Source: Mesobacillus jeotgali | GTDB lineage: Bacteria > Bacillota > Bacilli > Bacillales > Cytobacillaceae | DNA: 64,000 bases | NCBI RefSeq assembly: GCF_031759225.1 | Contig: NZ_CP134494.1 | Location: forward strand, 4,400,501-4,464,500 | Direction of reading: 5' to 3' | In this document: piece after piece, positions 8,618 through 52,503 of the stretch | Position numbering within the stretch: position 1 is the first letter of the stretch | How the letters are laid out: each line of letters starts with the position of its first letter | Program-made: the position numbers and the translations under genes | The notes under the pieces: generated by a model | What the model saw: only the letters and a program-made list of their open reading frames with translations | Told to the model about the DNA's origin: nothing | Databases searched by the model: none

Positions 8618-8713
8618 CAACTGGTATTATATTCGTTTCAACTGGTATTAAAATGCTTCCAACTGGTATTAAAACTTGTGCAACTGGTATTAAAATCCCC
8701 CCAACTGGTATTA
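8618..8713. repeat. 21-bp-period word array, word CAACTGGTATTA (5 copies)
   Basis: CAACTGGTATTA begins at 8618, 8639, 8660, 8681 and 8702, every step exactly 21 bp. The 12-base word is invariant, apart from what follows it, and the 9 bases between copies vary. It lies about 100 bp upstream of the NERD gene. Confidence 0.95.
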
Positions 8714-8816
8714 TCTTTATTGTTCTTAAAAATTTCACATAATTTATCTAAACAACACAGGTTTTTTCTTTCAATTGTAGAATTTTTAATGAAAATCTAT
8801 TGAGGAAGTGACACTT

Positions 8817-9806
8817 TTGATCGAAAAAGAACGCTCCTACCCCATTCGGCTTCTCATGTATGAAGCATTGATGGAAAATCTGACAGAAAACCACCCTAAA
8901 TTCCCAATTATCGAGCAAGATTATAGAGCTTGGCGAGCTGGTTATAAAGGTGAACTGCAAACTGATTACCGGTTAAGTTTTTTACCGGAAAAAGGGTATC
9001 ATATCTTACGGGATTTACGCCTAGCCGATGAAGAATGGTATTTTCAGATTGATACCCTCATCTTAACACTTCGCTATATCCTTCTTATTGAAACGAAAAA
9101 CTACTCTGGCATCCTTTTCTTTGATAAAGATTCCCAACAGATCATCCAAACAAAAGATGGGCAGGAAAAATCTTATGATAACCCTATTAACCAGGTTCGG
9201 ATGCAAGCCTGGCACTTAAAGAGGTGGCTAAAGAGCCATAAACTCAATGTCCCTCCCATATACCACCTTGTTACGATTAGCAATTCCTCTACTATAATTA
9301 AAGTGAGTGACCGTTCCTTAAATAACTTGATTGTGAAAGGAGATGCCATATTAAATAGAGTGATTCAAATAGATGAAATTACTTCAAACCCTACCTATAA
9401 TGATAAAGAATTAAAGAAGTTATCAAAGTTACTCATAAAGAAACATACTCCTCACCATCCTGACATTTTAAAACCATATTCCCTCACCCAAGCAGATCTA
9501 CAAAAAGGTATCCAATGCCCCTCATGTTTAACCTATGGAATGCAGCGTGATAAATGGACTTGGAGTTGTCCAGTATGCAATCACAAATCAAAATCAGCAC
9601 ACCACAAGAAGATTAAAGATTCCTTTCTTCTTTTTAAACCCTCCATTACAAACCAGGAATTCAGGGAACTATCTAACTGTCTATCGATTAGAGCAGCGAC
9701 CAACATCTTACTTTCAATGAACCTCCCCCACACAGGAACCAAAAAAGGCCGCATCTACCACATGCCACCTGACATCGAAGCATTCTTTAATCCCGCGAAA
9801 AAATAA
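8817..9806 (+). CDS. NERD domain protein with C-terminal zinc ribbon
   Basis: A 329-residue protein with a nuclease-related (NERD) domain at about 30-160: the segments DTLILTLRYILLIETKNYSG and QVRMQAWHLKRWL carry the family's conserved Asp, E-x-K and Gln. A Cys4 zinc ribbon follows near 235-262 (CPSCL and CPVCN). NERD domains are predicted nuclease-fold modules found in many otherwise unassigned bacterial proteins. I take TTG 8817, which has GAGGAAG eight bases upstream; the GTG at 8808 overlaps that site. The gene looks more AT-rich than its neighbours and is flanked by an array and a terminator, so it may be acquired. The substrate is unknown. It could act on DNA or RNA, or serve only as a binding protein. 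Confidence 0.8.
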   Translation: MIEKERSYPIRLLMYEALMENLTENHPKFPIIEQDYRAWRAGYKGELQTDYRLSFLPEKGYHILRDLRLADEEWYFQIDTLILTLRYILLIETKNYSGILFFDKDSQQIIQTKDGQEKSYDNPINQVRMQAWHLKRWLKSHKLNVPPIYHLVTISNSSTIIKVSDRSLNNLIVKGDAILNRVIQIDEITSNPTYNDKELKKLSKLLIKKHTPHHPDILKPYSLTQADLQKGIQCPSCLTYGMQRDKWTWSCPVCNHKSKSAHHKKIKDSFLLFKPSITNQEFRELSNCLSIRAATNILLSMNLPHTGTKKGRIYHMPPDIEAFFNPAKK

Positions 9807-9835
9807 AAGTTTCCTGCTCACAGCCCAAACGCGCT

Positions 9836-9863
9836 AAAAAGCCAGGGCGCTTTTTGCCCTGGC
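9836..9863 (-). terminator. terminator of spoIID
   Basis: A GCCAGGGC/GCCCTGGC stem, then TTTTTAGC on the minus strand, directly behind spoIID. The plus-strand NERD gene converges on it. Confidence 0.85.
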
Positions 9864-9870
9864 CTGGTAA

Positions 9871-10899
9871 TTATTTCTTCGCAGTAACCTTCGTCAGCAT
9901 GCTCTCTGCTTCGCTGATCTCGACGCCTTTGTAGTAGTGTTTGACGATGTCTTGATAGTTCTTGCCTTCGGTGGCCATGCCATTGGCTCCGTATTGGCTC
10001 ATGCCGACGCCGTGGCCGAAGCCTTCGGTGGTGATGACGACGTTATTGCCCTTCAGTTCCCAAGTGAAGTCGCTTGAGCGCAGGCCGAGTTTATCACGAA
10101 CTTCTTTTCCCGTCAGGACTTTACCTCCGATATCAATTTTAGCGACTCGGTTCCCAGTGGTCCTAGAGATGACTTTACCTATCTCCGGAGAATTCGGCAG
10201 CTTGACACCAAGCTTAGCCTCCACATCTGCCACAGTCATGACCGTTTGGTTACGAAACTTAGGTGACTCTAAATCCCATGGGCTTTCCACACTCCGCAAG
10301 TAAGGCAAGGAATTAGACCAGTATTCCTCTGAGTTCTCGGTAAAGCCGTTCGATGTCGAGAAGAAGGTTGCGTCGATTGGCGCACCGTCAAATGTTAGCA
10401 CCTGACCGTCAGTTGCCTTCACTGCCTCGGCGATTTTCTTCATCTTCCATTTGTAGTCGACGCCCCACTGCTTTTTCAATTCTTCCTTATTTTTAAACAC
10501 CTGGTGGATTTCCGTATCATTCAATTGTGCGCCTTCAGGTACGCCTACTTTATTGGGAATTAGCATTTGTCTTACATAATAAGTCCTTGCCGACAGTGCC
10601 TGTGCCTTCAACGCCTCCAGTTCGAACTCGGCGGGCATTTCAGCTGCAACGACTCCGATCAAGTATTCATCAAGCGGAAGCTTTTCTGTTTTGGATAGAG
10701 CTGTCCTGTAAACAGCTACCTCAACTGCGGAATCTGCAGTCGGGACAGCAGCCGTATCCTTCGCCTCTCTCTGCAACTCTTCCCCAAGCTTTCCGCCTGC
10801 CTTATCTTCCATAAAAGGGAGGACGAGCAAGGATGGAATCAGGAGTGTGACAGCGAATAGGATAGCAGCTAGTACGATGATTGGTTTGAATTTTAACAT
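9871..10899 (-). CDS. spoIID: stage II sporulation protein D
   Basis: A 342-residue mother-cell membrane protein with an N-terminal membrane anchor (about 4-25) and a SpoIID/LytB domain (about 65-320) that includes [14 protein letters not shown] and [16 protein letters not shown]. SpoIID is a lytic transglycosylase that works with SpoIIM and SpoIIP to degrade septal peptidoglycan and drive engulfment. ATG 10899 is chosen over an upstream ATG at 10989 because GGAGGC lies eight bases before it and the first residues then form the signal anchor. A sigma-E-type promoter lies just upstream. It sits downstream of murA, as in B. subtilis. The length matches the family (343 aa). Confidence 0.94.
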
Positions 10900-10950
10900 A
10901 GAAAAAGCCTCCATTATGAAATTATTCCGGTCGAAAACCGTCTCATTCCA

Positions 10951-10979
10951 TTCATATGGAGGCAGACAAGCTTTTATGA
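10951..10979 (-). promoter_or_regulatory. sigma-E-type promoter of spoIID
   Basis: TCATAAA (10973-10979), a 14-bp spacer, then CATATGAA (10951-10958) on the minus strand, close to the sigma-E pattern with a CATANNNT -10. Mother-cell expression of spoIID by sigma E is known in B. subtilis. Confidence 0.5.
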
Positions 10980-11124
10980 CAGTTTTCAAAAAAGCTCAGC
11001 ATTTGTATATTTTCTTTTAAAACGTACATAATAAGTCGGTTGAAATTGGACAGATATTTTTAAAATAGATGTTGATTACTATTTCAATCAACAGATTAAG
11101 ATTAAAATATACCTGATAATAAAT
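10980..11124. other. rest of the murA-spoIID gap
   Basis: The murA-spoIID gap is 312 bp. Besides the spoIID promoter and the murA terminator it holds only AT-rich sequence in which I recognise nothing. Confidence 0.4.
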
Positions 11125-11167
11125 CAAAAAACCGCAGAACTATACATTAAAGCACAATTCTCCGGTT
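11125..11167 (-). terminator. terminator of murA
   Basis: AACCGGAGAA pairs with TTCTGCGGTT around an 18-base loop, followed by TTTTGATTT on the minus strand, 45 bp past the murA stop. Confidence 0.65.
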
Positions 11168-11211
11168 CATTGAGTAGTATTCTTTATCGTTCATGTCTGA
11201 GACTAATTATC

Positions 11212-12519
11212 TTACGCGTTCATGTCTGAGACTAATTGATCTGTTACTGGCTGTTCTTCTACTTCGCTGATGCGTTCGATGTCTGCACCAAGTGCTGCAA
11301 GCTTATTGTGGAAGTTCACATAGCCGCGATCCAGGTGGTAAAGCTCTGTCACGCGAGTTACGCCATCTGCTACAAGACCAGTCAGGATCAGTGATGCTGC
11401 GGCACGCAGGTCAGTTGCTGCCACTTCTGCTCCCTGAAGGTTGGATGGTCCATTCATGATGACAGAACGTCCGTCGATTTTGATGTTTGCATTCATGCGG
11501 CGGAATTCTTCTACGTGCATGAAGCGGTTTTCGAAAACAGTTTCTGTGATCATGCTTGTTCCCTGAGCACGCAATAGCAATGCCATCATTTGAGATTGCA
11601 TATCTGTTGGGAAGCCAGGGTGCGGCATTGTCTTGATGTCGACTGCTTTCAATTTTTCAGGCCCGATGACACGAAGGCCCTCTTCTTCTTCAATGATCGT
11701 AACGCCCATTTCTTCCATCTTGGCAACCAATGAAGAAAGGTGTTCCGGAACAGCGCCTTTTACAAGGACGTTGCCGCCAGTGATGGCAGACGCAACCATG
11801 AAGGTTCCTGCTTCGATACGGTCAGGAATGATGTTGTGGTCAGCACCGAACAGTACTTCCACACCCTCGATCTTGATTGTGCCAGTGCCAGCGCCTCTTA
11901 CCTTCGCTCCCATTTTGTTCAGGAAGTTGGCAAGGTCGACGATTTCTGGTTCTTTTGCGACGTTTTCGATGATGGTTGTGCCTTTTGCAAGGACAGCCGC
12001 CATCATGATGTTTTCCGTAGCGCCAACGCTAGGGAAATCAAGGTATATTTTAGCTCCATGCAGACCATTGACTGCTTCGGCTTCAATAAAACCGTTGCCT
12101 ACCTTGACTGTCGCACCCATCGCTTCAAAGCCTTTAAGGTGCTGGTCGATAGGACGGGAACCGATTGCGCAGCCGCCTGGCAATGCTACGCGAGCACGGC
12201 CATTCCTGGCAAGCAGGGATCCCATTACTAATACAGAAGCACGCATTTTACGAACATACTCAAAAGGTGCTTCTATTTTTAACTCTCTGGATGCATCTAC
12301 TGTAATTGTGTTATTTTCAAACTCCACTACGGCGTTTAAAGAACGTAATACTTCGTTGATGGTATATACATCGGAGAGAGTTGGCACATCACGAATTACG
12401 CTTTTTCCGTCACTTGCTAATAATGTTGCAGCGATAACAGGCAAGACGGCATTCTTAGCTCCTTCAACCTTTACAGAACCGCTTAGCCTTTGTCCGCCGC
12501 GGACGATGATTTTTTCCAA
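11212..12519 (-). CDS. murA: UDP-N-acetylglucosamine 1-carboxyvinyltransferase
   Basis: A 435-residue cytosolic enzyme that transfers enolpyruvate from PEP to UDP-GlcNAc, the first committed step of peptidoglycan synthesis. The KNAVLP motif is at 22-27. The catalytic cysteine that fosfomycin alkylates is Cys117 in [10 protein letters not shown]. The start is TTG at 12519 with GGAGGGGAATACAC upstream. The neighbours (ywmB upstream, spoIID downstream) match the B. subtilis murAA locus, so this is the main MurA. A second paralogue lies at 56619-57905. The last residues run past the usual end with a short acidic tail. Confidence 0.96.
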
Positions 12520-12551
12520 GTGTATTCCCCTCCGCGTCCAATTTCTCTATA

Positions 12552-13271
12552 TTAATATTCAATCGTTATGATGGGTGTGCCAACTACAAGGGTAGTCTTT
12601 GCGCCCAATCGATCAGTTTTCCGTAATCCAAGCTGCATATTCATCTCATGGTCATTGCTCAAGGATTTGTCGAACAAAGGCGAAACAGCGGATGTAGATA
12701 TAAATGATTCCTCTTCTACTCCTTCGACTTCCTCAGCTTGAAAAGCCTTTAGCAATTTAGTTTTATAAACAGGTAAAGCCGATTTTATCTTATCACTGAA
12801 CTCGCCTTCAATACAAGAGAAAGTTGTGGCATTTCCGCGAAAAATGTCAAATATTCTGCCTGGTAAATTTTTGTTTAAAAATCTTTCTGTATTTTTATTC
12901 CAGTAGTGACCTCTGACCTCATACATCACATACGTATGTATCAGCCCATTTGTGTCCGTCGAAACAATTTTAATTTTTTCCTGAATCTCAGAAGAATTCG
13001 AAACAGCTGTAAGTTCTCCATCTCGGTGCTTCCATGTCCAACTCGGAAGCTGGACCTTCAATTCTTTTACCAAACCTTCGACACTTTCGTCTTCCAACGT
13101 TTCCCTTGCATATAAAGACCAACCCGTGATCAAAATATTTTCGTCCTGCAAAACTGAGGCCAGAGTTTTGATTTCATGATCAGCGTCAGCTACAGTCGTC
13201 TTATTCCCAGCTTGGAACACAATAAAACCAATAATGCCAAAAATTGATAAAATAAATGGAATCTTTTTCAT
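12552..13271 (-). CDS. ywmB: YwmB family TATA-box-binding-like protein
   Basis: A 239-residue protein with an N-terminal signal or anchor (about 4-22) followed by a mixed alpha/beta region. It matches the YwmB family (TATA-binding-protein-like fold) by position immediately upstream of murA, by length and by the LITGWSLYARE and GRIFDIFRG-like segments. It is probably secreted or membrane-attached outside the cytoplasm. Its function is unknown, and the fold name does not imply transcription. The ATG at 13271 has only a GAGAG-type ribosome site. It is 32 bp before murA, so the two are probably co-transcribed. Confidence 0.75.
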   Translation of the reverse strand: MKKIPFILSIFGIIGFIVFQAGNKTTVADADHEIKTLASVLQDENILITGWSLYARETLEDESVEGLVKELKVQLPSWTWKHRDGELTAVSNSSEIQEKIKIVSTDTNGLIHTYVMYEVRGHYWNKNTERFLNKNLPGRIFDIFRGNATTFSCIEGEFSDKIKSALPVYKTKLLKAFQAEEVEGVEEESFISTSAVSPLFDKSLSNDHEMNMQLGLRKTDRLGAKTTLVVGTPIITIEY

Positions 13272-13581
13272 ATGTCTCTCACTCTCCCCTTATTACCATT
13301 CTTACCAGGAGAGCAAATCGCATACTTGGGAATTCTCGTCACTTTTTGACATCATTCTATGTACCAACTTAACCGGGTGTTCATTTGTTTGTGAAAAAAT
13401 AAACATGCCTTTGCAAAAAACAAGCACAAAAACAATAATACTCAAGTTTTCGCGTTTTGGAAACATGTATGAAGACCTAATTTTTTACCAATTTGTTTAG
13501 AACTAACAGCAGATGGGCTAAAAGGTTGTTACTAAGCTATTTTTGATTGAGAAGTCACAAAGTTTACGAAAAAAAAGAACC
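13272..13581. other. gene-free gap between ywzB and ywmB
   Basis: 310 bp of AT-rich sequence. A plus-strand ORF across it has no ribosome site and is not convincing. I see no terminator with a clear stem behind ywzB and no repeat. Confidence 0.4.
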
Positions 13582-13818
13582 TTACTGAAAAATCATCGGA
13601 AGCTGCTGTGACCATTGGAGGTAATCTAGGAAGAAATTACTTACTGTGGATCCCAGTGCGATGGAAGCAAGAATATATAAGACACGGGCCTGAAGTACAT
13701 GGTTTGCCCTAAGCATTTTATCGAATTGGAGTGCTTGCAGAGCCCACCAAGAAATGGCGATAAAAACAAGATGTGTCAGAATGCTGGTCAGCGCAAAGCC
13801 GCCAAAACCTGTAATCAT
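13582..13818 (-). CDS. ywzB: DUF1146 family membrane protein YwzB
   Basis: A 78-residue protein with two membrane segments (about 6-26 and 46-66), starting MITGFGGFALTSIL, typical of DUF1146. In B. subtilis ywzB lies between the atp and murA regions as here. Its function is unknown. The ATG at 13818 has GGGGGGACCG upstream. It stands alone: the nuo terminator lies upstream and 310 bp of empty sequence downstream. Confidence 0.85.
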   Translation of the reverse strand: MITGFGGFALTSILTHLVFIAISWWALQALQFDKMLRANHVLQARVLYILASIALGSTVSNFFLDYLQWSQQLPMIFQ

Positions 13819-13930
13819 AAACGGTCCCCCCTTACCATGTCTATTTTAACATAAAATAGATGATTACCTGTTATTTTAGACGTTTCAGAAGCTCGAAAGT
13901 TTCATGTGATCTTAGTAATTCTCTATACAG

Positions 13931-13964
13931 TAAAAAAACTGGCCTGCAATGATTGCAGACCAGC
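13931..13964 (-). terminator. terminator of the nuo operon
   Basis: CTGGTCTGCAA pairs with TTGCAGGCCAG, followed by TTTTTTTA on the minus strand, about 80 bp beyond nuoN. Confidence 0.9.
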
Positions 13965-14043
13965 TGAATTTACCCCTTTGTTTCCATGAATAGATTTTCC
14001 CCAAAACCCAAACATGTTAGTGCTTTTTGTTACTAAAAAGCGT

Positions 14044-15564
14044 TTACCTCATAAAATCCACAAACTGATTGAAGTTACTATGCATGAAGTCGATTGCCAG
14101 GTTTGGCAAGACTCCGAACAGGATTGTTCCGACTACTGTAATCAGGATGACGGCAATTGTTCCTGCTGGCAGCTGGATTTTTTCGTCGCTTGCTGCCGGG
14201 CGGAAGAACATTTGCGTCATGATTCCGAAGTAGTAGAAATAGGATACGACTGTTGTTGCAATCATGATCGATACTAGGACGTAGTGTGCCTGGTCGACCA
14301 TCAATGCGCCCATGAAGATGTTCAGCTTACCGATGAAACCTGCTGTACCCGGGATTCCTGCGAGTGACAGGATGAAGATTCCCATTCCCACTGCGAGCAG
14401 CGGTGAGCGGCGGTAGAGGCCGGCGAAGTGGCTGATATCTTCTGAGCCAGTTTTCATTGTGATCACTTGGATCACAGCGAATGCACCAAGGTTCATCAAC
14501 ACGTATGCGAGCATGTAGAACCAGATTGCATCGAATGTCACGAAAGACATGGCAGTCAATGCGACAAGGATGTAACCCGCATGCGCGATACTTGAGTAGG
14601 CGAACATGCGCTTGATGTTGCGCTGTCTCAAGGCGATGACGTTACCAATGATCATCGTTGCTCCCGCCAGGAATGCAATGTAATCCTGGACTGCGAACAG
14701 CAATGGAATTGGCTGCCCATCTTCTTGTGCGACAGGAATGTATCCAAAAATCGATAACAGGATTCGAAGGATGATCACGAATCCAGCTGTTTTTGAGACG
14801 ACGCTCAGGAACGCAGTCACCGGAGTCGGAGCTCCTTCGTATACATCCGGTGCCCACATATGGAATGGCGCCGATGCGAGCTTGAATGACAATCCGACGA
14901 AAATCATGAAGAATGCCAGTCCAAGAATGTAGATATGCTGAGGGTCACTCAGACCACCAAAGACTTGAGCGATTTCTCTTAAGTTTGTTGATCCGGCGAT
15001 TCCGTACACATAGCTCATACCGAACAATGTAATTGCCGAAGAAATTCCGCCGTTTATGACGTATTTCATAGCTGATTCATTCGATTTCAGGTTGCGCTTT
15101 CGCATCCCTGCAAGGACATAGGACGGAATGGACAGCAATTCAAGTCCGACAAACAAGGTAATCAAATCGCCGCTTGATGCCATGAACATCGTACCAAGCA
15201 ATGCCGTCAGGAACAGATAGAAAAATTCTCCCTTGTATTCCTCAAGTCCGTCATTCGTCCTGTAATCGATTGCCAATAGCATGACAAGTGCCGCTCCAAG
15301 TAGAAGGATCAGCTTGAATGCAATCGCAAACGAATCCAATCTGAATGTATCGTATAAAATGGATGTTGTTTCAGTACCAATCAGCGATACCAGCGAAACC
15401 AGCGCCAGTACGATACCAGCGAAACCAGCCCAGCCAAGGACTTTCCGGTCAACATGCTTTGGCATGAATAAATCAGCGACTGATAAAATTGCAATGACAC
15501 CAAGGATGATGAATTCCGGAGTCATCGTCCCCCAATCAAATGATAGAAGTGTATCTAGATCCAT
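14044..15564 (-). CDS. nuoN: NADH-quinone oxidoreductase subunit N
   Basis: A 506-residue antiporter-like membrane subunit of complex I with about fourteen transmembrane segments. The proton-channel core is recognisable: conserved Glu in the GLELLSIPSYVLAG segment, and Lys in the KLASAPFHMWAPDVYEG segment. It is the last gene of the operon, six bases after nuoM, and is followed by a terminator. Together with NuoL and NuoM it forms the three proton-pumping modules of the membrane arm. Confidence 0.95.
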   Translation of the reverse strand: MDLDTLLSFDWGTMTPEFIILGVIAILSVADLFMPKHVDRKVLGWAGFAGIVLALVSLVSLIGTETTSILYDTFRLDSFAIAFKLILLLGAALVMLLAIDYRTNDGLEEYKGEFFYLFLTALLGTMFMASSGDLITLFVGLELLSIPSYVLAGMRKRNLKSNESAMKYVINGGISSAITLFGMSYVYGIAGSTNLREIAQVFGGLSDPQHIYILGLAFFMIFVGLSFKLASAPFHMWAPDVYEGAPTPVTAFLSVVSKTAGFVIILRILLSIFGYIPVAQEDGQPIPLLFAVQDYIAFLAGATMIIGNVIALRQRNIKRMFAYSSIAHAGYILVALTAMSFVTFDAIWFYMLAYVLMNLGAFAVIQVITMKTGSEDISHFAGLYRRSPLLAVGMGIFILSLAGIPGTAGFIGKLNIFMGALMVDQAHYVLVSIMIATTVVSYFYYFGIMTQMFFRPAASDEKIQLPAGTIAVILITVVGTILFGVLPNLAIDFMHSNFNQFVDFMR

Positions 15565-22509: not shown

Positions 22510-22512
22510 GGG

Positions 22513-23904: not shown

Positions 23905-24417
23905 TTAGATCACCTTCTTCCCGGTTTTCGCCTCATAACGGATTTTCTCTTTCAATTTATTAATCCCGTAAATCAATGCTGCAGGATTCGGCGGGCAACC
24001 CGGTATGTAAACATCGACCGGCACAATCTGATCGACACCTTTTACAACTGAGTATGATTTTACATATGGACCGCCTGCTGTCGCGCATGATCCCATCGCG
24101 ATAACCCATTTAGGTTCTGCCAATTGGTCATACAGTCTGCGGACAGTCGGAGCCATTTTTTTCGTAACAGTGCCTGAAACAATCATGACATCGGACTGAC
24201 GAGGCGAGTTTCGGTAGAATGTCCCGAAACGGTCCAGGTCATAGTGAGCCGAACTCGATGCCATCATTTCGATTGCACAGCACGCAAGGCCGAAAGTCAT
24301 TGGCCACATGGAGTTGCTCCTTGCCCAGCCTTTAACCTGTTCAAGAGTTGTCACGAATACGTTTCTTTGGAGTTCTGCTACTTCTTCAGGTGAGAAATCA
24401 TCCAACTTTAAATCCAT
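23905..24417 (-). CDS. nuoB: NADH-quinone oxidoreductase subunit B
   Basis: A 170-residue subunit carrying the terminal [4Fe-4S] cluster N2 that reduces quinone. The cysteine ligands are visible: the tandem pair in [17 protein letters not shown] and [10 protein letters not shown] 24417 is preferred to 24438 because GAAGGTG lies seven bases upstream. With this start the gene overlaps nuoA by ten bases. The C-terminal tail is short, as in other Bacillus homologues. Confidence 0.95.
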
Positions 24418-24785
24418 TTTAGCACCTTCTTTTTCCATGCGTAGATGAGTCCAATCAGAAGCATCACCACGAAAATCAGCATCTCGATCAATGCGAAGAT
24501 TCCCAGCTTCTCATAGGCGACAGCCCATGGATACAAAAACGCTGTTTCTACATCAAAAATAACGAACATAAGAGCAAAAACATAATAACGGACATTAAAC
24601 TGGACCCGCGCATCACTGAACGGTACCATCCCGCTCTCGTAGGTGGTATATTTCCGCTCGTCCTGCTTGTATTTCGGCCGCAGAAGCTTAGCCGCAAACA
24701 AAGCTACGATTGGAAGCAATACCCCGAGACATAGGAACACAAAGACTATCAAATAGTTATTTTGATATAGATTCAACTGCTCCAT
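24408..24785 (-). CDS. nuoA: NADH-quinone oxidoreductase subunit A
   Basis: A 125-residue membrane subunit with three transmembrane segments and the family stretch [20 protein letters not shown] (about 52-71) that contacts the quinone chamber. GGAGGG sits six bases before ATG 24785, making it a better start than the ATG at 24791. It is the first gene of the operon, with a sigma-A promoter about 60 bp upstream. Confidence 0.95.
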
Positions 24786-24842
24786 GCCCATCCCTCCAAT
24801 GTTGTGAAATTTTCATACTTTTTAATCTTGTAACCGATAACA

Positions 24843-24871: not shown

Positions 24872-25370
24872 CAAGCCTTTGAACAATCTGGCAACCTTCT
24901 TCCATGCCCTTTTCAATAGAGAAATAGTTTCTGAATTGAGGTGATTTGGACTGGAAAAAAGACGGCTCCCCTTTCATACTTAGTTGCTTGGAAGGCAATA
25001 TATTCTTACTCTTTTGCCCAGGCTTTTTCGGGCGCCTGCCGGTTTGGAGGGTGCAGCCTCCTGATCATGCGCTTTTAAAGGTAAAACGTAGCAGACAATC
25101 GGTTACATTCTATATTTAATCCAATTTGGTTTAAGTTGTCAGTGACGTTTGTCAACATTGGGGAATCTGTTAGGTAGAGTGATTTTGAATTGTTTTTTTG
25201 GCGATTTGTTTGGTGATTTTTGCGGCTGAAGGAGGAACGAATGCAGAGTTCTGCTAATTCTGCTTCCAAACTGGTTGATTGGAAGGAGGAAATCTTCTGA
25301 TTTGGCGAAAATTTGTGGGTGAATTAAGAAATTCTACTGAAAATTGGAGAGTAAATTGGCTGGTGTTTAG
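24872..25370. other. gene-free part of the atpC-nuoA gap
   Basis: The atpC-nuoA gap is 801 bp. Apart from the nuo promoter, the 20-21-bp array and the atp terminator, this stretch holds a GC-rich patch at 25010-25080 with small hairpins (a GGAGG/CCTCC stem near 25045-25062) and no credible ORF. A 64-codon minus-strand ORF at 25075-25269 has no ribosome site. I cannot assign an RNA or other function. Confidence 0.4.
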
Positions 25371-25485
25371 TTTTATTGGCGGTTTTCACAATTTTATTGG
25401 CGATAATTTCGTTTTATTGGCGAAAAAAATTTTTTATTGGCGATAATTTGATTTTATTGGCGATTTTCACTACTTTATTGGCGAA
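25371..25485. repeat. 20-21-bp-period word array, word TTTTATTGGCGA (6 copies)
   Basis: TTTTATTGGCG(A) begins at 25371, 25392, 25412, 25432 and 25452, with a sixth copy (first base changed) at 25473; steps are 21, 20, 20, 20 and 21 bp. The filler between words varies. The array lies about 60 bp beyond the terminator of the ATP synthase operon. Confidence 0.95.
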
Positions 25486-25544
25486 ACGGAATCTGCACCC
25501 AGATTTATAAGGTTACTGGCAGCAGATTCGCAATGCCACGCACA

Positions 25545-25586: not shown

Positions 25587-25997
<411 letters not shown>

Positions 25998-34798: not shown

Positions 34799-35349
34799 GT
34801 GATATTTCCTTTCGACGTGAACGTAGAAATCTAATTATGTTATTCCTGCTCCACCCTCATGAAGTCCCCTGTGGATTCACCACTTCCTCCTTCAAGTAAG
34901 TCCTTTCGGATTGTCTGCTTCTACACAGGAATTGTATGCCTAGTTCTCGTTCTTCCTAATTGTTCAGTCCTTCCCTTACCGTCTCGAGCCGGTAAAGTAC
35001 TATGACCTCTGCTGACTTCTGATTGTTCAGCTATCTATTGCTAGATAGGTTACCAAGTGTACTTGGCTTTCCAATCAGACCTCCCCGGGTAAGAGTACAG
35101 TCTTTCCCTCCATCTATCTGCTTCATTTACTCTGTACCACCTTCGGCAGTAAGGACTTTGTTTTGTTCTGCAAACTCATCCAATGGTACCTAGCCTTATA
35201 TGAAGTTCGTGTTCCTCAGACCGGAGGTTTGCCGCTCGCTTCCTTCAGATTCCGCGTCACCGCGGACACCCTTGCGTTAAGCTAACCACTACTACTGCCT
35301 TCATGGCTCGGGACTTACACCCTATAGACTGCACCCATGCCGGGCGCAC
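34799..35349 (-). ncRNA. 5' ribozyme part of the group IIC intron (domains I to early IV)
   Basis: This is the non-coding part of the 695-bp stretch between the maturase and the protease. It contains conserved group IIC strings such as AACGCAAGGGTGTCCGCGG and GAATCTGAAGGAAGC near 35220-35290 (minus strand). The rest of the stretch is the exon terminator and the 43-bp repeats. Confidence 0.85.
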
Positions 35350-37773: not shown

Positions 37774-37848
37774 GACGGAATCCCCCTTTTTCCGTTTAGC
37801 GTTTCAATTGGGGTGCGCTATTATACTTCCAAAAATAGGGTGACTGTG

Positions 37849-37941
37849 CAATTAACCTGAATGTCCGTGCAATTGTCGTTGTTTTTCGCACAATTATTTG
37901 AGTTGAGTCTGCAATTATAAATGATATATGTGCAATTATTG
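37849..37941. repeat. 21-bp-period word array, word TGCAATTA (5 copies)
   Basis: CAATT(A/G), usually within TGCAATTA, begins at 37849, 37870, 37891, 37912 and 37933, every step exactly 21 bp. The third copy reads GCACAATTA. The array is 65 bp beyond the wecB terminator and 75 bp before the protease start. The word is the reverse complement of the one at 52411-52502. Confidence 0.92.
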
Positions 37942-42484: not shown

Positions 42485-42620
42485 TGTAAAATCCTCCTAT
42501 GTATTCCCGGCTTGCGGGGCGATCAAATCTATCGTTATTTTCTCATATTCGCTCTGAATTATAAAGAAAACCGGTTTTTGCGATCGAATTTTAGCTGGTA
42601 GATCATAATTATTATGTTTT

Positions 42621-42720
42621 ATAGCGAGTTTTCATTTTTTATAGCGACTTTATCATTTATAGCGAGTTTTTATATAGCGACTTTTACGATTTTATAGCGA
42701 GAATTTCATTTATATAGCAA
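42621..42720. repeat. about 20-bp-period word array, word TTATAGCGA (6 copies)
   Basis: ATAGCGA begins at 42621, 42641, 42659, 42674 and 42694, with ATAGCAA at 42714; steps are 20, 18, 15, 20 and 20 bp. It lies within the 306-bp rpiB-chemoreceptor gap, starting 35 bp beyond the chemoreceptor terminator. The rest of that gap (42485-42620) is AT-rich and contains only the rpiB ribosome site. Confidence 0.9.
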
Positions 42721-42754
42721 ATTGGAAATTCCAAAGGATTTTTTCCAGTTTTAC

Positions 42755-47049: not shown

Positions 47050-47123
47050 CTCTATCACCTCAAAAATAAGATTCTAGTAAAAAGATATGAGAGAAGGTAG
47101 AAAGTAGAACTTAAAAAAGGATA

Positions 47124-47169
47124 AAAAGAAACACGGCAGCCTCCATTTTTATAATGAAAGCTGCCGTGT
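47124..47169 (-). terminator. terminator of the KGG-repeat gene
   Basis: ACACGGCAG pairs with CTGCCGTGT around a 21-base loop, then TTTCTTTTT on the minus strand. Confidence 0.85.
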
Positions 47170-47202
47170 ATCCTTTGGTTTCTGGCTTTCTAAGCCAACT
47201 GA

Positions 47203-47595
47203 TTAGTTATTGTTGTTATTGTTGTTGCGGGCATTGCCGCCTTTTTCACCGATTTCTTCATAGAAGCTTCGGTCATGGTTTTCAGAAGTCGCTTCCCCGC
47301 CTTTGCGGCCGATCTCCTGATAGAAGTCCTTATCGTGGCTTTCAGAGGTTGCTTCGCCACCTTTTTTCCCGATTTCCTGGTAGAATTCGCTGTCATGGCT
47401 TTCAGCAGTAGCCTCTCCGCCTTTGCGGCCAATTTCCTGATAGAAATCTTTGTCGTGATTGTTCGAAGTTGCTTCGCCGCCTTTACGGCCGATTTCCTGG
47501 TAGAAGTCGCTGCCATGGTTCTGGCTTGTAGCTTCGCCGCCCATGCGTCCTCGTTCTTCACGTGACATCTTATCATTGTTATTGTTTTTAGCCAT
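47203..47595 (-). CDS. KGG-repeat general stress protein (GsiB-like)
   Basis: A 130-residue hydrophilic protein made of five tandem units of about 20 residues, each a variant of FYQEIGRKGGEATSENHDKD, with an N-terminal MSREERGRMGG half-unit and an Asn-rich tail at both ends. These KGG motifs define the stress_B family; B. subtilis GsiB is a sigma-B-controlled hydrophilin-like example. There is no membrane segment and no cysteine. It has a strong ribosome site (AAGGAGGATG before ATG 47595). It is monocistronic with a terminator. Its function is presumed to be protection under desiccation or other stress. Confidence 0.88.
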   Translation of the reverse strand: MAKNNNNDKMSREERGRMGGEATSQNHGSDFYQEIGRKGGEATSNNHDKDFYQEIGRKGGEATAESHDSEFYQEIGKKGGEATSESHDKDFYQEIGRKGGEATSENHDRSFYEEIGEKGGNARNNNNNNN

Positions 47596-47900
47596 TATTA
47601 CTCATCCTCCTTGAAATCTAAGTTTTGATGTTACACTACACTGAATATCCGGATTCTCCCACCCTGAAACTAGTAACAAGGGAATGTAATATGCTTGTTT
47701 AAAGAATGTAATATTTTTGGTAATTCTGACAGTCACTTTTCCTCATTTACCAAGTATTTCTTAAGAGAAGCTAGCTGAAGTTTCCTAGCTTCTCATAGTG
47801 AAAAATTCATAAGTGAGTGATTTAAGTCACTATGTCACCCATTTTGTATGGTTATAATAAATGTATTCAAATGAAAACCTTTCTCACAAGGGGGCACGGG
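47596..47900. other. divergent gap between the KGG and haemoglobin genes
   Basis: 305 bp that must hold two divergent promoters. I could not pick out clear -35/-10 pairs and specifically no convincing sigma-B promoter (GTTTAA-GGGTAT) for the stress gene; TTGTTTAAAG at 47696-47705 is the nearest -35-like sequence, on the plus strand. Confidence 0.35.
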
Positions 47901-48278
47901 ATGGAAATCAAAACAATATACGAGAAGATCGGCGGAGATGAGTCAATCCGCAAGATTGTCGATACTTTTTATCCAAAGGTATACGAAAATGAGGAGCTCA
48001 GTCCGTTGTTCGAGGGCGATATGAGTGAAATCAAGCGGAAGCAATGGATGTTCCTCACCCAGCTGACCGGGGGCGGCGCACTGTACAGCGAGGAATTTGG
48101 ACCGCCTAATATGAGAGTGAGGCATATGCCATTCGAAATCACACCGGTGCGTGCCCAGGCATGGCTGAAGCTGATGCATGAAACACTGACAGAAACCGGC
48201 TTGATTGACACCGAGGGCGGCAAAGCGCTGTTCGAGCGTTTGAGCCAGATCGCACCGATAATGATCAACAAACATTAA
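47901..48278 (+). CDS. truncated haemoglobin, group II (YjbI-like)
   Basis: A 125-residue globin with the truncated 2-on-2 fold. YEKIGGDESIRKIVDTFYPKV begins it (family start, residues 5-25), FL-x-QLTGGG is the E-helix region, and the proximal histidine is most likely in RHMPFEITPVRAQAWL; Trp in AWL is characteristic of group II. Such proteins bind O2 or NO. ATG 47901 is preferred, preceded by AAGGGGG; the ORF extends to 47832 without a site. It is followed after 14 bp by a cupin gene, a probable two-gene operon on the plus strand. Confidence 0.88.
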   Translation: MEIKTIYEKIGGDESIRKIVDTFYPKVYENEELSPLFEGDMSEIKRKQWMFLTQLTGGGALYSEEFGPPNMRVRHMPFEITPVRAQAWLKLMHETLTETGLIDTEGGKALFERLSQIAPIMINKH

Positions 48279-48292
48279 GGAGGAATTCAATC

Positions 48293-48634
48293 ATGGAAAA
48301 ACAATCATTGAAACAATACCAGGAATTCAGCGAAGAACGTTTTACGAAAAGAATTGTTTTCAAAAAAGGCGACAGCACCGTGTTCCTTTTGAACTTCATG
48401 CCAGGACAAGAACTGCCGAAACACACGCATCCAGGTACTGAAGTATTCATTTTAACGATGCAGGGAGAAGGCACATTCCTTGTTGATGGCGAAGAGATCG
48501 TGGCCGCTGCGAACGAGACCGTCCACCTGGGCGGGACTGAAGAACTCGCCTATAAAAACACAGGATCAGAGCCAGTCACGCTTTATGTGATGCTCAATAA
48601 GATTCCGGATGAGAGATTTGCGCAGAATATTTAA
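48293..48634 (+). CDS. single-domain cupin protein
   Basis: A 113-residue beta-barrel protein. Metal-binding motif 1 is seen as LPKHTHPGTEVFIL (two His and a Glu) and motif 2 around ETVHLGGTEELAYKN. Small cupins of this kind are mostly unassigned; some are dioxygenases, isomerases or sensors. The ATG at 48293 has AAGGAGGAATTC upstream. It sits 14 bp behind the globin gene, so it probably works with or is co-expressed with it. Substrate not inferable. Confidence 0.85.
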   Translation: MEKQSLKQYQEFSEERFTKRIVFKKGDSTVFLLNFMPGQELPKHTHPGTEVFILTMQGEGTFLVDGEEIVAAANETVHLGGTEELAYKNTGSEPVTLYVMLNKIPDERFAQNI

Positions 48635-48690
48635 GGGCCAGCAAGATGTATGCAAAAGCCCAAACAAAGAGCGTTATATCCCCACCTGGT

Positions 48691-48821
48691 CGATATAGTC
48701 GAAAATGTGGTCGATAAAATCGGAAATCCGCTGATATAATTTAAAATGTGGTCGATATATTTAAAAATCCGCTGATATAATTCAAAATGTGGTCGATATA
48801 TTTGGAAAATCGCCAATATAT
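48691..48821. repeat. 20-21-bp-period word array with two alternating words (7 copies)
   Basis: GATA(TA) begins at 48692, 48713, 48733, 48754, 48774 and 48795, with AATATA at 48815; steps 21, 20, 21, 20, 21 and 20 bp. Two words take turns from the second copy: GTGGTCGATA and CCGCTGATATAA, so the combined unit is 41 bp. It is 27 bp beyond the spoIIR terminator and 55 bp past the cupin gene. Confidence 0.93.
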
Positions 48822-48846
48822 TTGCCTGCAAGGTATCTCATTAGTT

Positions 48847-48880
48847 AAAAATAGCCCCTGCGGCCTGCGCAGGGGCTTAT
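48847..48880 (-). terminator. terminator of spoIIR
   Basis: AGCCCCTGCG pairs with CGCAGGGGCT, then ATTTTTAAC on the minus strand, directly behind spoIIR. Confidence 0.9.
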
Positions 48881-48881
48881 T

Positions 48882-49607
48882 TTATCCGAAAATCCTGTTC
48901 CAAATCTCGACGAGGAAGAATGATACCTCTACTTCTTCTTCGCCGCCTTCATATACTTTTTTCTCGTCTTTTTTATCTTCGTTTTTCTTATCCTTTTTAT
49001 CTTCGTTTTTCTCATCATCAAGCTCAGCATCAACGGACTCGTCTTCTGTTTCTACTTTTACATCGCCCTTGCTGTCGTTTTCATCGAAGCCTTCGCTTGT
49101 TGCTTCTCCGTTTGAGAAATCAAGGAAGCATAGTGGCGGATAGAGGACGCACCACCAGTTCGCTCCTTCGCCTTCGCCCAAAGTGATCAGGATTGCTTCA
49201 TACTCACCTGCTGGATAGAGAAACTGCCCATATAATTTAGTAGGAAACTGGACTTTGTCAAACTCTGTTTTTACAGATTGGTTTGCGCCTTCAGCTGCAA
49301 CAACACCTTCCGCGATTGCCTGGATTTCCGGAAGCTTGGATTTGATAACTTCTCGCGCTGCTTCGATTGAAGTAAGCTCCTGGACCCATTTCGTGATTTC
49401 TTTGTTCACTTCGTCGCGGATCAAGCGTTTGATGTTCTGGTCTTTCTCCAGGTCGCTGTCAGCGAGGATCCTCAGGCGGATCGCCTCATTCGGGATGACC
49501 ATCGCTTCCTTCGCGGTCACTTCATTTTTTGGTGTATATAAACTTAAAATAGTACCTGCACATAATAAGAGTATGTATAGAATAGCTGCTGATTTTTTCA
49601 TCATCAT
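48882..49607 (-). CDS. spoIIR: stage II sporulation protein R
   Basis: A forespore-secreted signalling protein that activates the SpoIIGA protease to process pro-sigma-E in the mother cell. It has an N-terminal signal (about 3-24) and the family core IPNEAIRLRILADSDLEKDQNIKRL-type segment near 38-60, then WWCVLYPPLCFLDF. Odd: between that block and the conserved-looking end EVSFFLVEIWNRIFG lies a charged, low-complexity insertion of about 60 residues (DEKNEDKKDKK). Start is ambiguous: three ATG codons at 49601-49607 and a GTG at 49616; 49607 is used here (241 aa). A sigma-F-type promoter lies just upstream. Neighbours prmC and ywl genes match B. subtilis. Confidence 0.92.
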   Translation of the reverse strand: MMMKKSAAILYILLLCAGTILSLYTPKNEVTAKEAMVIPNEAIRLRILADSDLEKDQNIKRLIRDEVNKEITKWVQELTSIEAAREVIKSKLPEIQAIAEGVVAAEGANQSVKTEFDKVQFPTKLYGQFLYPAGEYEAILITLGEGEGANWWCVLYPPLCFLDFSNGEATSEGFDENDSKGDVKVETEDESVDAELDDEKNEDKKDKKNEDKKDEKKVYEGGEEEVEVSFFLVEIWNRIFG

Positions 49608-49634
49608 CTCTCGCACCGTCCCTTCACTAGTAAA

Positions 49635-49664
49635 CAGTGTGGACAGTTTGATAGATTCTTAAAC
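49635..49664 (-). promoter_or_regulatory. sigma-F-type promoter of spoIIR
   Basis: GTTTA (49660-49664), a 15-bp spacer, then GTCCACACTG (49635-49644) on the minus strand. It fits GYATA-N15-GGNNANANTR with the same G-to-T change in the -10 as spoIIQ here. It would give a leader of about 20 bases. Confidence 0.55.
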
Positions 49665-49675
49665 TAGTAATTTTG

Positions 49676-49709
49676 AAAAAAATTGGACCCCTTTTTATCA
49701 GGAGTCCAA
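49676..49709 (-). terminator. terminator of prfA-prmC
   Basis: TTGGACTCCT pairs with AGGGGTCCAA, then TTTTTTTC on the minus strand. The stem includes the prmC stop codon. Confidence 0.85.
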
Positions 49710-50564
49710 CTCAGCGAAAACCATCCGGTCCTTGCCGTTAATATCAAAAACAATCTCAACCTTGGCGTCCGGGAAGGTATTTTCCAGTAATCTACGTACC
49801 GCTTCACCCTGTCCAGAACCGATCTCGAAGCCAATGAGCGCTTTTTCTTTTAAAACAAGCGGAAGTTCCTCCATGAACCGGCGATACAGATCCAAGCCAT
49901 CTTCGCCTGCAAAAAGCGCCATATGCGGTTCATGCTCAGTGACGATATCCGACATCCATTCCTGGTCAGCGACCGGGATATAAGGCGGATTCGAAATGAC
50001 AGCATCTACTTTTTTCCCTTGTAAAATGAGCGGCTGCAGGAGGTCTCCGTGCAAAAACTCAATTTCCGCACCAAGCTTGCTTGCATTTTTCCGCGCCACC
50101 TCAATAGCGTCTTTAGAAAGGTCAACTGCAGTTACCTTCAATTCTGGTTTTTCCAGCTTCAAGGTAACCGAAATCGCCCCGCTGCCGGTCCCGACATCGA
50201 CAAGTTCAATAGAATCTCTTTCCGGAAATAGCTTGTCCAGCCGCTGTAGTGTGCCATATACTAGTTCTTCCGTCTCCGGACGGGGAATCAGCACATGCTC
50301 ATTCACTTCAAAACGGCGGCCGTAAAATTCCTCGCTGCCAATAATATATTGAATCGGCTCGCCAGCGGCATGCCTTTTTACAACAGCCTGGAACTCGGAC
50401 CATACTTCGCCATCCAGTTCATCGCGCATCTTCATCAGCATGGATGTACGGGACAGCCCCGAATAGTGCCGCAGCAAAAGCTCACCGGCGAACTCCTCGC
50501 GATTATGTTCTTTTAAAAAAGAAGAAGCCCAATTGAGGGCTTCAAATATTCTTACATTACTCAT
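49698..50564 (-). CDS. prmC: peptide chain release factor N5-glutamine methyltransferase
   Basis: A 288-residue SAM-dependent enzyme that methylates the Gln of the GGQ motif in release factors. The N-terminal helical domain (1-80) is followed by the Rossmann domain with [17 protein letters not shown] and the active-site [15 protein letters not shown] 50564 overlaps the prfA stop by eight bases, so the enzyme is translationally coupled to its substrate gene. Confidence 0.94.
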
Positions 50565-51630
50565 TGTTCGCACTCTCAAGTCTTTGAGACTGGTCTTCCA
50601 TAATTAACGCTTCAATGATCTCATCCATCTTTCCCTGAAGAATCTGGTCAAGCTTCTGGATTGTCAGTCCGATGCGGTGGTCAGTCACTCGGTTTTGCGG
50701 GAAGTTGTACGTACGGATTCGCTCAGAGCGGTCACCAGTACCTACAGCTGACTTACGGACCTGATCATACTCCGCTTGTGCTTCCTGCTGGAACTTGTCA
50801 TAGACGCGGGCACGAAGAACCTTCATCGCCTTGTCTTTGTTTTTATGCTGTGATTTTTCATCCTGACACGATACGACGATTCCAGTTGGGATATGCGTCA
50901 GACGTACAGCTGACATTGTTGTGTTAACAGACTGTCCGCCGGCGCCGCTGGAAGCAAATGCATCAAAGCGGATATCTTTGTCATGCAGCTCGATTTCCAC
51001 CTCTTCTGCTTCTGGAAGACATGCAACAGTAGCGGTTGAAGTATGGATACGGCCGCCAGATTCTGTTTCCGGAACACGCTGGACGCGGTGCGCACCATTT
51101 TCGAACTTCATTTTAGAGTAAGCGCCATTTCCGTTGATCATGAAGATGATCTCTTTAAAACCGCCTACGCCAGTCGTGCTGGCATCGATGACTTCAGTCT
51201 TCCAGCCCTGTGATTCAGCATAACGGCTGTACATCCTGTAAAGGTCACCGGCAAATAAAGCAGCTTCATCGCCACCTGCAGCGCCGCGGATTTCCATGAT
51301 AACGTTCTTGTCATCATTAGGATCTTTAGGGATCAGAAGGACTTTGATGCGAGCTTCAAGCTCCTCGATTCGTGGTTCAAGCTCTGAAATTTCTTCCTTT
51401 ACCATTTCGCGCATCTCTGCATCAAGCTTTTCCTCGAGCATCGCTTTCGCATCTGTCAGCTGTTCTTTTACTTCCTTATATTCACGATAAGCCATGACGG
51501 TTTCCTGGATGTCGGACTGCTCTTTTGAATACTCACGAAGCTTCTTGGAGTCATTGACAACTTCCGGGTCACTCAATAGCTCATTCAATCTTTCATAACG
51601 ATCCTCAACTGATTGAAGACGATCAAACAC
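50557..51630 (-). CDS. prfA: peptide chain release factor 1
   Basis: A 357-residue factor that releases peptides at UAA and UAG. The catalytic GGQ is in [13 protein letters not shown], and the codon-recognition P-x-T-type region lies at about 185-190. The GTG at 51630 is preferred: AGAGGTGA lies seven bases before it and the product starts [15 protein letters not shown] like B. subtilis PrfA (356 aa), whereas the ATG at 51636 abuts the ribosome site. It is the first gene of the prfA-prmC pair. Confidence 0.96.
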
Positions 51631-51810
51631 GGACATTCACCTCTATTTTAATTGCCTTGAAATTGGATTATAAATTTATTCTTGCCTGTGTATTTCCGAA
51701 ACAGGTCTGATAATTCAACATTGCATAACATTCTAATTATAGTATAGCTGACCCCCTCAGTCAAAGCCATTATGACTGGAAAAGCGCAACCTCCGTCATC
51801 TGTAAAATGG

Positions 51811-51839
51811 AAAAAGCATGCCCTTTTATGAGCATGCTG
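51811..51839 (-). terminator. terminator of the spore lipoprotein gene
   Basis: AGCATGC pairs with GCATGCT around a loop of ten, then TTTTTCC on the minus strand. Confidence 0.8.
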
Positions 51840-51854
51840 CTGAAGTAGAAATTT

Positions 51855-52304
51855 CTATTGGATATCAACGTTAATGTCATAGCGCGGCAAAGCTTTCGCC
51901 AGCTTTTGCTGCAATGTCTTTTGGGCTTTTTCACGGTCATTCCTGGTCACGTGGCCTTCAAGCTGGGCAGTTACGTTCATTTCTCCGCCGTTGATCCAGA
52001 TGGAGCCTGGCTCATATCCAGCGTCAGAAATGACATCCTTTGCCTTTTGGACATCCTGGGAAAAACTATGGTGGTTCTCGTTGTCGGTGTTCAATAAGTT
52101 AGGATTCTGGTCGGTCATCGTCATGCCGTCATCCTGATCCCTCGAAAAATTAGGACCATCACCTTCGCGGACACCGTCACCCTCTCTGTTCAGGTCCATG
52201 CCAGCCTGGTCTTGATCCTTGTCATAAACTGATTCGGTATTATCCTGGCCACATCCTGAAACCATAACCACCACAAACACTAGCAACATGAGTAATATTT
52301 TCAA
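51855..52304 (-). CDS. YhcN/YlaJ family sporulation lipoprotein
   Basis: A 149-residue secreted lipoprotein. The signal peptide ends in a lipobox MVSGCG (Cys about residue 17). It is followed by a polar, Asp/Asn-rich region and the conserved C-terminal domain with VQKAKDVISDAGYEPGSIWINGG-like sequence, which places it in the YhcN/YlaJ family of spore-membrane proteins. The start is TTG 52304: GGGAGGTG lies seven bases before it, and the ORF upstream lacks a signal. It lies between tdk and prfA, and its role is probably in the spore membrane. Confidence 0.8.
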   Translation of the reverse strand: MKILLMLLVFVVVMVSGCGQDNTESVYDKDQDQAGMDLNREGDGVREGDGPNFSRDQDDGMTMTDQNPNLLNTDNENHHSFSQDVQKAKDVISDAGYEPGSIWINGGEMNVTAQLEGHVTRNDREKAQKTLQQKLAKALPRYDINVDIQ

Positions 52305-52410
52305 ATTATGGCACCTCCCGTGGTTATCTTGCCCTGTGGAGGTATTAAGCATGCCCTAAATTTTTGAAAAATGAGCAGCTGGAAAAATTATTCTCTTACT
52401 CAACGACTAT

Positions 52411-52503
52411 AATTGCACGTTAAAGAGTATTAATTGCACGAAAAAAACCATTAATTGCGCGTTCAATTGAGATAATTGCACCGCAAAGTGACGTAATTGC
52501 ACT
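52411..52503. repeat. 21-bp-period word array, word TAATTGCAC (5 copies)
   Basis: AATTGC begins at 52411, 52432, 52453, 52474 and 52495, every step exactly 21 bp; four copies extend to TAATTGCAC and one reads TTAATTGCGC. It lies 28 bp beyond the tdk terminator. The word is the reverse complement of the word of the array at 37849. Confidence 0.93.

Follow-up and report, generated by a model that had tools for sequence, protein, structure and literature searches.

Direct-repeat arrays in the window

The window analysed here is a stretch of 64,000 nucleotides from Mesobacillus jeotgali, positions 4,400,501-4,464,500 of a 4.63-Mb single-contig genome (NZ_CP134494.1), and the product of its atpC gene shares 98% identity with the Mesobacillus selenatarsenatis SF-1 protein. 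Six intergenic gaps in this window each carry an array in which a short DNA word is repeated head to tail at a step of mostly 20-21 bp, with variable linkers between the copies (Table 1). We describe these arrays, the families of words that they share with other gaps of the same genome, the way in which the words change between species, and the absence of arrays from the sampled terminus region. Genomes and loci are cited where needed by our own handles (G and L numbers).

All six arrays are present in the sequence as an earlier note, made from the letters alone, had described them: gaps with five to seven direct copies, mostly at a 20-21-bp step, three of them (8618, 37849 and 52411) with five copies at exactly 21 bp. 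The earlier note had also proposed that every word faces the same side of the helix, and this agrees with the 21-bp arrays; with a 20-bp step, at 10.5 bp per turn, each copy would by simple arithmetic drift by about 34 degrees. The 42621 array is the least regular of the six.

The 8618 array is flanked by a VanZ-like gene (8072-8509) on one side and by a NERD-domain gene (8808-9806) on the other, and it runs in the direction of both. These two genes have Pfam support, and both were missed by our gene caller, a simple codon-usage script that misses some genes. The 25371 array lies between atpC (25587-25994) and a nuoA-like gene (24408-24791), and the 48691 array adjoins a spoIIR-like gene (48882-49616) in a gap called convergent. 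Some arrays come with flanks of their own type. An inverted repeat of the form CTGGAAAAA...TTTCCAG adjoins, as judged by eye, 11 of the 12 TCGC arrays listed, the atpC array being the exception, and 11 of the 15 genome sites of the flank motif CTGGAAAAATTATTCTCTTA have a GTGCAATTA array no more than 60 bp away; among the four remaining sites, the one at 1,719,232 (L023) is a similar element whose words are mixed. No Rfam family overlaps any of the window arrays at the gathering threshold.

Table 1. Arrays and associated elements in the window, and examples of the 52-bp-step class elsewhere in the same genome
Feature	Position	Strand	Steps or remarks
8618 array, CAAC type, five copies of CAACTGGTATTA	8618..8716	+	every step 21 bp
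25371 array, TCGC type, six copies of TCGCCAATAAA (gene direction)	25371..25487	-	steps 21, 20, 20, 20, 21
37849 array, GTGC type, five copies of GTGCAATTA, one being GCACAATTA	37846..37938	+	step 21
42621 array, TCGC type, six copies of TCGCTATAAA (gene direction)	42620..42720	-	steps 20, 20, 15, 18, 20
Inverted repeat TTGGAAAT..ATTTTTTCCAG	42722..42748		between terminator and TCGC array
48691 array, seven units, GTGGTCGATATA and CCGCTGATATAA alternating, last TCGCCAATATA	48688..48826	+	steps 21, 20, 21, 20, 21, 20
52411 array, GTGC type, five copies of GTGCAATTA (gene direction), one being GCGCAATTA	52410..52502	-	step exactly 21
Flank motif CTGGAAAAATTATTCTCTTA of the GTGC element	52379..52398	+	15 genome sites, at most 2 mismatches
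52-bp-step array	L011:11486-12208
52-bp-step array	L018 from 34
52-bp-step array	L039:12781-13131
52-bp-step array	L042:7862-8159
52-bp-step array	L134:6756-7065

The step exceeds chance and the words form families

A count of exact 8-mer matches in 171 kb of intergenic sequence from this genome (drawn from 864 kb) gives 115 at lag 20, where shuffled sequence gives 8, and 253 at lag 21, where it gives 3; the signal has harmonics at lags 40-42 and 60-63. The corresponding counts in 80 related loci are 287 and 414 against 2 and 4. At lags 10 and 11 the same intergenic sequence gives 15 and 10 matches, within the range of ordinary lags, and we rejected a 10-bp phasing such as that of gyrase wrapping because these lags are no higher than others. 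An array detector set to steps of 17-25 bp found 25 arrays in 864 kb, some of them coding repeats with an 18- or 24-bp step, whereas three block-shuffled replicates yielded none. Applied with steps of 19-22 bp to 1.664 Mb, a 36% sample of the genome, it found 33 arrays between genes and one in coding sequence, from which we extrapolate to roughly 90 arrays per genome. That figure is probably an underestimate because the detector recovered four of the six window arrays and missed those at 37849 and 42621. The claim that the spacing lies beyond chance is therefore upheld, the lag-20/21 excess being present in the intergenic part of the 864 kb that was measured, and no single consensus was found among the arrays that would make them one shared-consensus repeat family.

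The words belong to CAAC-, TCGC-, GTGC- and GTGG-headed families, most of them ending in ATAAA or ATTA. Pairs of CAACTGGTATTA occur at 5 places in the genome (two of these known by one pair with 3 mismatches), pairs of TCGCTATA at 17 and pairs of GTGCAATTA at 19, a few of all these places being a single pair. Since words recur at many places, the apparent change of word from locus to locus comes from a set of word families, and the idea that each word is private to its locus has to be given up; a common pitch with different words holds genome-wide. The earlier suggestion of a protein that reads shape and not sequence is disfavoured as well, because the same letters recur at 17-19 places and the words are kept at the 52411 gap (a partly circular observation, as explained below). 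This genome alone has at least six different CAAC cores, and composite CAAC-type blocks exist. We rejected a single genome-wide specificity per species because each of the 7 genomes searched has several CAAC cores side by side.

Words change in concert at an orthologous gap

We recovered the 8618 gap from 17 congeneric genomes in addition to our own, and all 18 carry an array at 20-21 bp; the search of an eighteenth congener (G009, 66% complete) gave no match. The copy number is five in 14 of the 18 genomes, four in L172, L183 and L185, and 47 in L186. Following CAAC, the words read TGGTATT, CGTTGAT, CGGAGAT, TGGAGAT, CGTAAAT, CGGGAAT, GGGGATT, CGTGAAT, CGTTTAAT/CGTTAAAT or CGTCGAT, with TGGGATT in L186, which makes about ten different words among the 18 genomes. 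The expectation that a comparison of orthologous gaps would find the pitch kept while the word changes is thus borne out at this gap. The expanded array of L186 (genome G008) consists of 47 counted CAACTGGGATTA-like units joined by a small set of recurring linkers.

To place the copies we used the frame CAAC.G...AT, so that the constancy of the frame is partly built in, and the core columns 4, 6, 7 and 8 were not used. In 17 genomes (including L172, L183 and L185, each with one of five copies unmatched, and leaving out L186), identity in these core columns is 0.67-0.89 within an array and 0.30-0.49 for the same copy between species. The linker columns 16-20 behave in the opposite way, with 0.16-0.27 within an array and 0.28-0.40 for the same copy between species, and in columns 14-15 the two identities are about equal. 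Linkers of L170 and L171 are 74% identical and their cores 40% (Fisher p 0.02), and those of L170 and L173 are 63% identical and their cores 20% (Fisher p 0.004), both being pairs that share history. Over 69 pairs with different cores, drawn from 14 of the 17 genomes (L172, L183 and L185 dropped, L186 left out), linkers match by copy index at 0.354 against a permuted mean of 0.297, a value reached in 0 of 2000 permutations, although the species pairs share history and are not independent. At the CAAC locus, the four core columns change in concert and the linkers tend to be inherited copy by copy. We did not use the difference between TCGCCAATA and TCGCTATA in the atpC gap as a case of in-place change, as the linkers there are too A/T-rich to judge by eye.

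At two other gaps the arrays differ from genome to genome. Among 17 genomes with the 52411 gap, GTGCAATTA is kept in 10 (including our own), other words stand in L204, L207, L209 and L212, the entire element is inverted in L213, and no array is present in L214 and L215. In the 10 genomes that keep the word, the nine word columns are 0.76-1.00 identical and the linker columns 0.38-0.71, a conservation that is partly circular because these 10 of 15 scored genomes were selected by word match. The 42621 gap holds TCGC arrays in L229-L240, a degenerate array in L241, GTGG-type arrays instead in L243-L245, and none in L246, L247 and L251 (the last from another family). In L214, L215, L246 and L247 these two gaps can be seen in array-free form, as natural empty sites.

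Arrays follow transcription and avoid divergent gaps

Our gene finder gave 608 gaps of at least 150 bp, 404 of them codirectional, 136 divergent and 68 convergent, and these classes hold 24, 1 and 7 arrays, so that divergent gaps have 1 of 32 arrays as against 136 of 608 gaps (Fisher p 0.004). The script scored word direction as that of transcription in 20 of 22 scorable codirectional cases, and in 21 of 22 once the gene-caller error at the 8618 array is corrected, the one remaining exception (L013) appearing real; four further arrays lie in other gaps, and 7 of the 33 were not scored. The genes at 8618 oppose replication, and in this one case the array follows the genes and not the fork. A predicted terminator lies on the same strand within 250 bp upstream of 19 of the 33 arrays.

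Arrays are absent from the sampled terminus region

GC skew places the terminus near 2.35-2.42 Mb. The 23 stretches (460 kb) that start between 2.06 and 3.38 Mb contain no array, compared with 33 in the 1204 kb sampled elsewhere. These bounds were drawn after the data had been seen; an empty-run test that allows for this gave 12 of 20000 shuffles, or 32 of 20000 when the shuffles were weighted by terminators. The density of predicted terminators is equal in the two parts, at 59.1 and 57.4 per 100 kb. The 41 places of CAACTGGTATTA, TCGCTATA and GTGCAATTA in the genome skip 1.96-3.41 Mb; a CAAC locus lies at 2.00 Mb, and at 3.32 Mb there is a GTGC flank motif that stands as an orphan. Closest to the origin, five stretches (100 kb only) are also array-free.

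Two other genomes were also looked at. The 9 TCGCTATA and 13 GTGCAATTA places of G018 skip 1.84-3.25 Mb, and its CAAC places reach 2.10 Mb, so that the listed places of all three kinds leave 2.11-3.25 Mb empty. G016 has no array in 200 kb of terminus as against 14 in 200 kb elsewhere, a biased sample in that the terminus stretches were placed where our own genome is empty and 4 of the 10 outer stretches (0.90, 1.30, 4.23 and 4.54 Mb) held array places that were already visible; when these four are left out, 4 arrays in 120 kb stand against 0 in 200 kb.

A second class of intergenic arrays, with a step of 52-53 bp and often many copies, served as a control, and it is not depleted at the terminus (15 arrays in 460 kb against 46 in 1204 kb). 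This class numbers 61 arrays in 1.664 Mb, and each of its units contains a word and the reverse complement of that word (for example CTTCAGACAGG / CTGTCAGAAG, TATTGGTGACC / GGTCACCAAT, TATCGGACA / TGTCCGATAG). A tandem-repeat finder listed none of this class in the window.

The pitch recurs in other genomes

At the atpC gap an array was detected in 18 of 80 related loci. Nine of these have TCGC words (L049-L056 and L058) and nine have other words, for example GGAGAGTAAA, GGCAGATAAA, ATCGGGATTA and TATGAGCC. Of four genomes from other families, sampled at 100 kb each, three gave no arrays and one, G022, has two: an array of 22-bp step, and one that starts at L270:2961, in which a GGCGCATAAA-like (GGCGCATAAACC-like) word stands 32 times with a step of exactly 21 bp. 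With the same gene finder, arrays were also found in gaps at L218, at L248 (G028) and at L224 (G026). The pitch recurs, with other words, in some other families.

Of 299 genomes of the order, 8 have triplets of TCGCTATA, and these all belong to the same genus as ours; 12 have triplets of GTGCAATTA, namely seven of eight congeners and five genomes of four other genera. One congener, G014, has 0 GTGCAATTA triplets and 74 TCGCTATA triplets when at most 1 mismatch is allowed, a count that degenerate arrays could escape, and a coordinated loss of the GTGCAATTA word in this genome is possible. In G166 our reversed control pattern (ATATCGCT, 20-bp step, three copies, at most 1 mismatch) matched 26 and 33 times, 59 in total, and these matches may be an array family with yet another word.

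Other features of the window

Beside the VanZ-like gene there are four copies of a 35-bp repeat (7916-8056). On the minus strand at 34967-35266, Rfam also identifies a group II intron by two matches (D1-D4 models), and it places an L31 leader at 53719-53751.

Interpretation

We tentatively read the arrays as platforms on which sequence-specific DNA-binding proteins dock and so insulate transcription units and/or organise the origin-side arms of the chromosome, a reading to which we give slightly less than an even chance. It builds on what was observed directly: the arrays, their pitch, the recurrence of words, the concerted core change at one locus, the polarity with transcription and the absence from the sampled terminus. 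Words that recur base by base, linkers that are free to vary, a copy number of mostly five or six and a pitch of two turns suggest cooperative binding of a protein; avoidance of divergent gaps together with transcription polarity suggests a block that separates transcription units; and the empty terminus, a feature shared with Noc and SlmA sites, suggests a role at the scale of the chromosome. Each of the handful of word families that a genome carries would be read by its own protein or reader variant, which would bind the array cooperatively, and a locus would pass from one word to another, and so to a new address, through a change in all of its copies. The bound block would then insulate neighbouring transcription units and/or organise the origin-proximal arms of the nucleoid, and the terminus may be kept free of arrays because a stable block in that region would interfere with the final steps of segregation or division.

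Several observations weigh against docking platforms. No large family of small DNA-binding paralogues was seen by eye among 1390 predicted proteins (the 36% sample), in an all-against-all comparison at E <=1e-8 and 60% cover that diverged readers could escape; the DNA-binding groups in this set resemble sigma factors (two groups, of 6 and 4 members), response regulators (4) and AraC-like proteins (3). The main difficulty is what reads the core, since at least six CAAC cores coexist in a genome in whose sampled proteins no reader family was seen. The words resemble YAACNG, the motif of eukaryotic Myb-like proteins, and a Myb-like reader (PF13921) was considered and rejected: proteins of this kind number two in 25 of 31 genomes and three in 6 of 31, and they are present in Bacillus subtilis too, with no expansion. 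Steps of 20, 15 and 18 bp weaken strict phasing, and the copy number of CAAC-type arrays is not fixed, as the composite blocks and the 47-copy array testify. Inverted cases exist (L213 and L013), and predicted terminators are also common downstream, within 250 bp on either strand of 15 of the 33 arrays, a count from a crude finder that is not like for like with the upstream one. An array can be missing from a given gap in several genomes (L214, L215, L246 and L247), so that no single array is essential. In addition, at a core distance of 4 (10 pairs) the linkers are at background (0.28 and 0.29), and therefore large word changes may be replacements.

A different explanation is that the arrays are mobile elements of about 150 bp, like miniature inverted-repeat transposable elements (MITEs), that insert behind terminators, with the words as binding sites of a transposase and no function for the host. 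The flanks that travel with their words (as CTGGAAAAATTATTCTCTTA does with GTGCAATTA), the inverted and missing elements at the 52411 gap, the exchange of TCGC for GTGG-type arrays at the 42621 gap and its array-free forms, and the dispersal of word families over 17-19 places are all as one would expect of such elements. At the CAAC gap, however, the words stay regular as the linkers drift, and the core changes in place with the linkers partly kept. No transposase or target duplication was identified, the element ends having been compared by eye only; no viral contig matched the exact three-copy TCGCTATA or GTGCAATTA pattern; and predicted terminators, the supposed targets, are as common in the array-free terminus as elsewhere. 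We think mobile elements unlikely, while allowing them real weight. Homogeneity of words could also come by descent, if slippage or unequal exchange spread one unit through an array by neutral turnover, and the expanded arrays of 47 copies (L186) and 32 copies (L270) and the 41-42-bp higher-order units that include linkers (at window 48691 and at G000 2000609) have this appearance. Yet at the CAAC locus only the word is homogeneous. Linkers of one array have an identity close to that of random sequence, and they match by copy index between species even where the words differ, which disfavours the simple repeat-making process proposed earlier and leaves turnover quite improbable.

The arrays could instead act as RNA, with read-through transcripts presenting repeated sites to an RNA-binding protein or a small RNA. 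Words follow transcription in 20 of 22 cases (21 after correction), and most TCGC arrays follow an inverted repeat, as judged by eye. On the other side, the two-turn pitch and the absence from the terminus have no obvious reason in RNA, the window arrays have no Rfam overlap, and 19 of the 33 arrays lie past a same-strand predicted terminator, so that they would be transcribed mainly by read-through; we judge a role as RNA improbable. That the arrays are chromosomal copies of plasmid iterons, kept as decoys against incoming plasmids, we find scarcely credible. Their layout does match that of iterons, in which a word specific to the replicon is directly repeated five to seven times at 20-22 bp, but the 221 bp at 25320-25540, the one of six arrays tried, had no match at E <=1 among 72,556 plasmid records, and decoys do not fit with arrays that occupy dozens of places in each genome, hold orthologous positions and are absent from the terminus.

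The docking-platform reading can be carried further, to a chromosome-wide address system that we regard as rather unlikely. Each array would be a label of which the word, and not the neighbourhood, is read by one of several co-existing word-specific readers, or through the pairing of like arrays by a bridging protein; the labels would be re-programmed in place by concerted core change and excluded from the terminus, which would leave the domain that replicates last unbound; and the pitch would be common to the array-bearing families of Bacillales, each with its own words. If the arrays are docking sites, a group of Bacillales has on the order of a hundred of them per chromosome (33 in the 36% sampled here) that unite three rarely joined properties: sequence-specific words that can change in concert, a pitch that recurs in other families and absence from the terminus. 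They would then form a natural comparable series for nucleoid partition, for insulation of transcription units, and for the co-change of a DNA-binding specificity with its many sites.

Comparison with known systems

Among the results listed by searches of the open-licence literature of PubMed Central (PMC), no description of such a class of arrays was found, and a literal search for the words listed papers of unrelated title. In clustered regularly interspaced short palindromic repeats (CRISPR), unique spacers separate copies of an identical repeat of about 21-48 bp, and cas genes accompany them; the arrays are unlike these in that their words are of about 8-14 bp and their linkers are short (no search for cas genes was made). 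Repetitive extragenic palindromic (REP) sequences and bacterial interspersed mosaic elements (BIMEs) are dispersed in non-promoter gaps at the 3' ends of operons and are palindromic with a shared consensus. The placement in gaps is alike, but the arrays are head-to-tail direct words of several consensuses and not palindromic units. MITEs are marked by terminal inverted repeats and by target duplication at filled sites; in the arrays, conserved flanks and empty or inverted occupants of gaps were seen, the ends having been compared by eye only. The boxes of LytTR-type regulators (AgrA, ComE) are paired 9-bp direct repeats with starts about 21 bp apart, and they differ in being two copies at few regulated promoters, as compared with five or six at dozens of gaps. 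Plasmid iterons have in common with the arrays several direct repeats at a pitch of 17-22 bp; unlike iterons, the arrays occupy dozens of chromosomal places, with many places per word and linkers that are little constrained, and where iterons stand beside a rep gene in a replication origin, the window arrays have ordinary genes as neighbours (no search for rep genes was made).

The Noc sites of B. subtilis and the SlmA sites of Escherichia coli number in the tens, are dispersed on the chromosome and are under-represented in the terminus region (PMC4726725). Under-representation at the terminus is common to these sites and the arrays (0 of 33 arrays in 460 kb). Noc and SlmA sites are palindromes with one consensus per system (14 bp for Noc) and do not form arrays, and the array words differ from them. 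The palindrome of Noc reads ATTTCCCGGGAAAT, and it has only 2 near matches in 1.664 Mb (central CCGG exact, at most 2 mismatches), both in array-free stretches. A Noc gene scores over the cut-off at 4,625,462 of our genome, and the family does so in 21 of 21 genomes searched; Noc sites in this genome may differ or be few.

The nearest described case is that of the TAACTGA direct repeats of Beggiatoaceae and Cyanobacteria, of which there are more than 100 sets in one genome, mostly intergenic and with no established function (PMC4679880). Like the arrays, these are many intergenic sets of short direct repeats within a single genome; they differ in having one fixed heptamer that lies mostly just upstream of start codons (PMC4679880).

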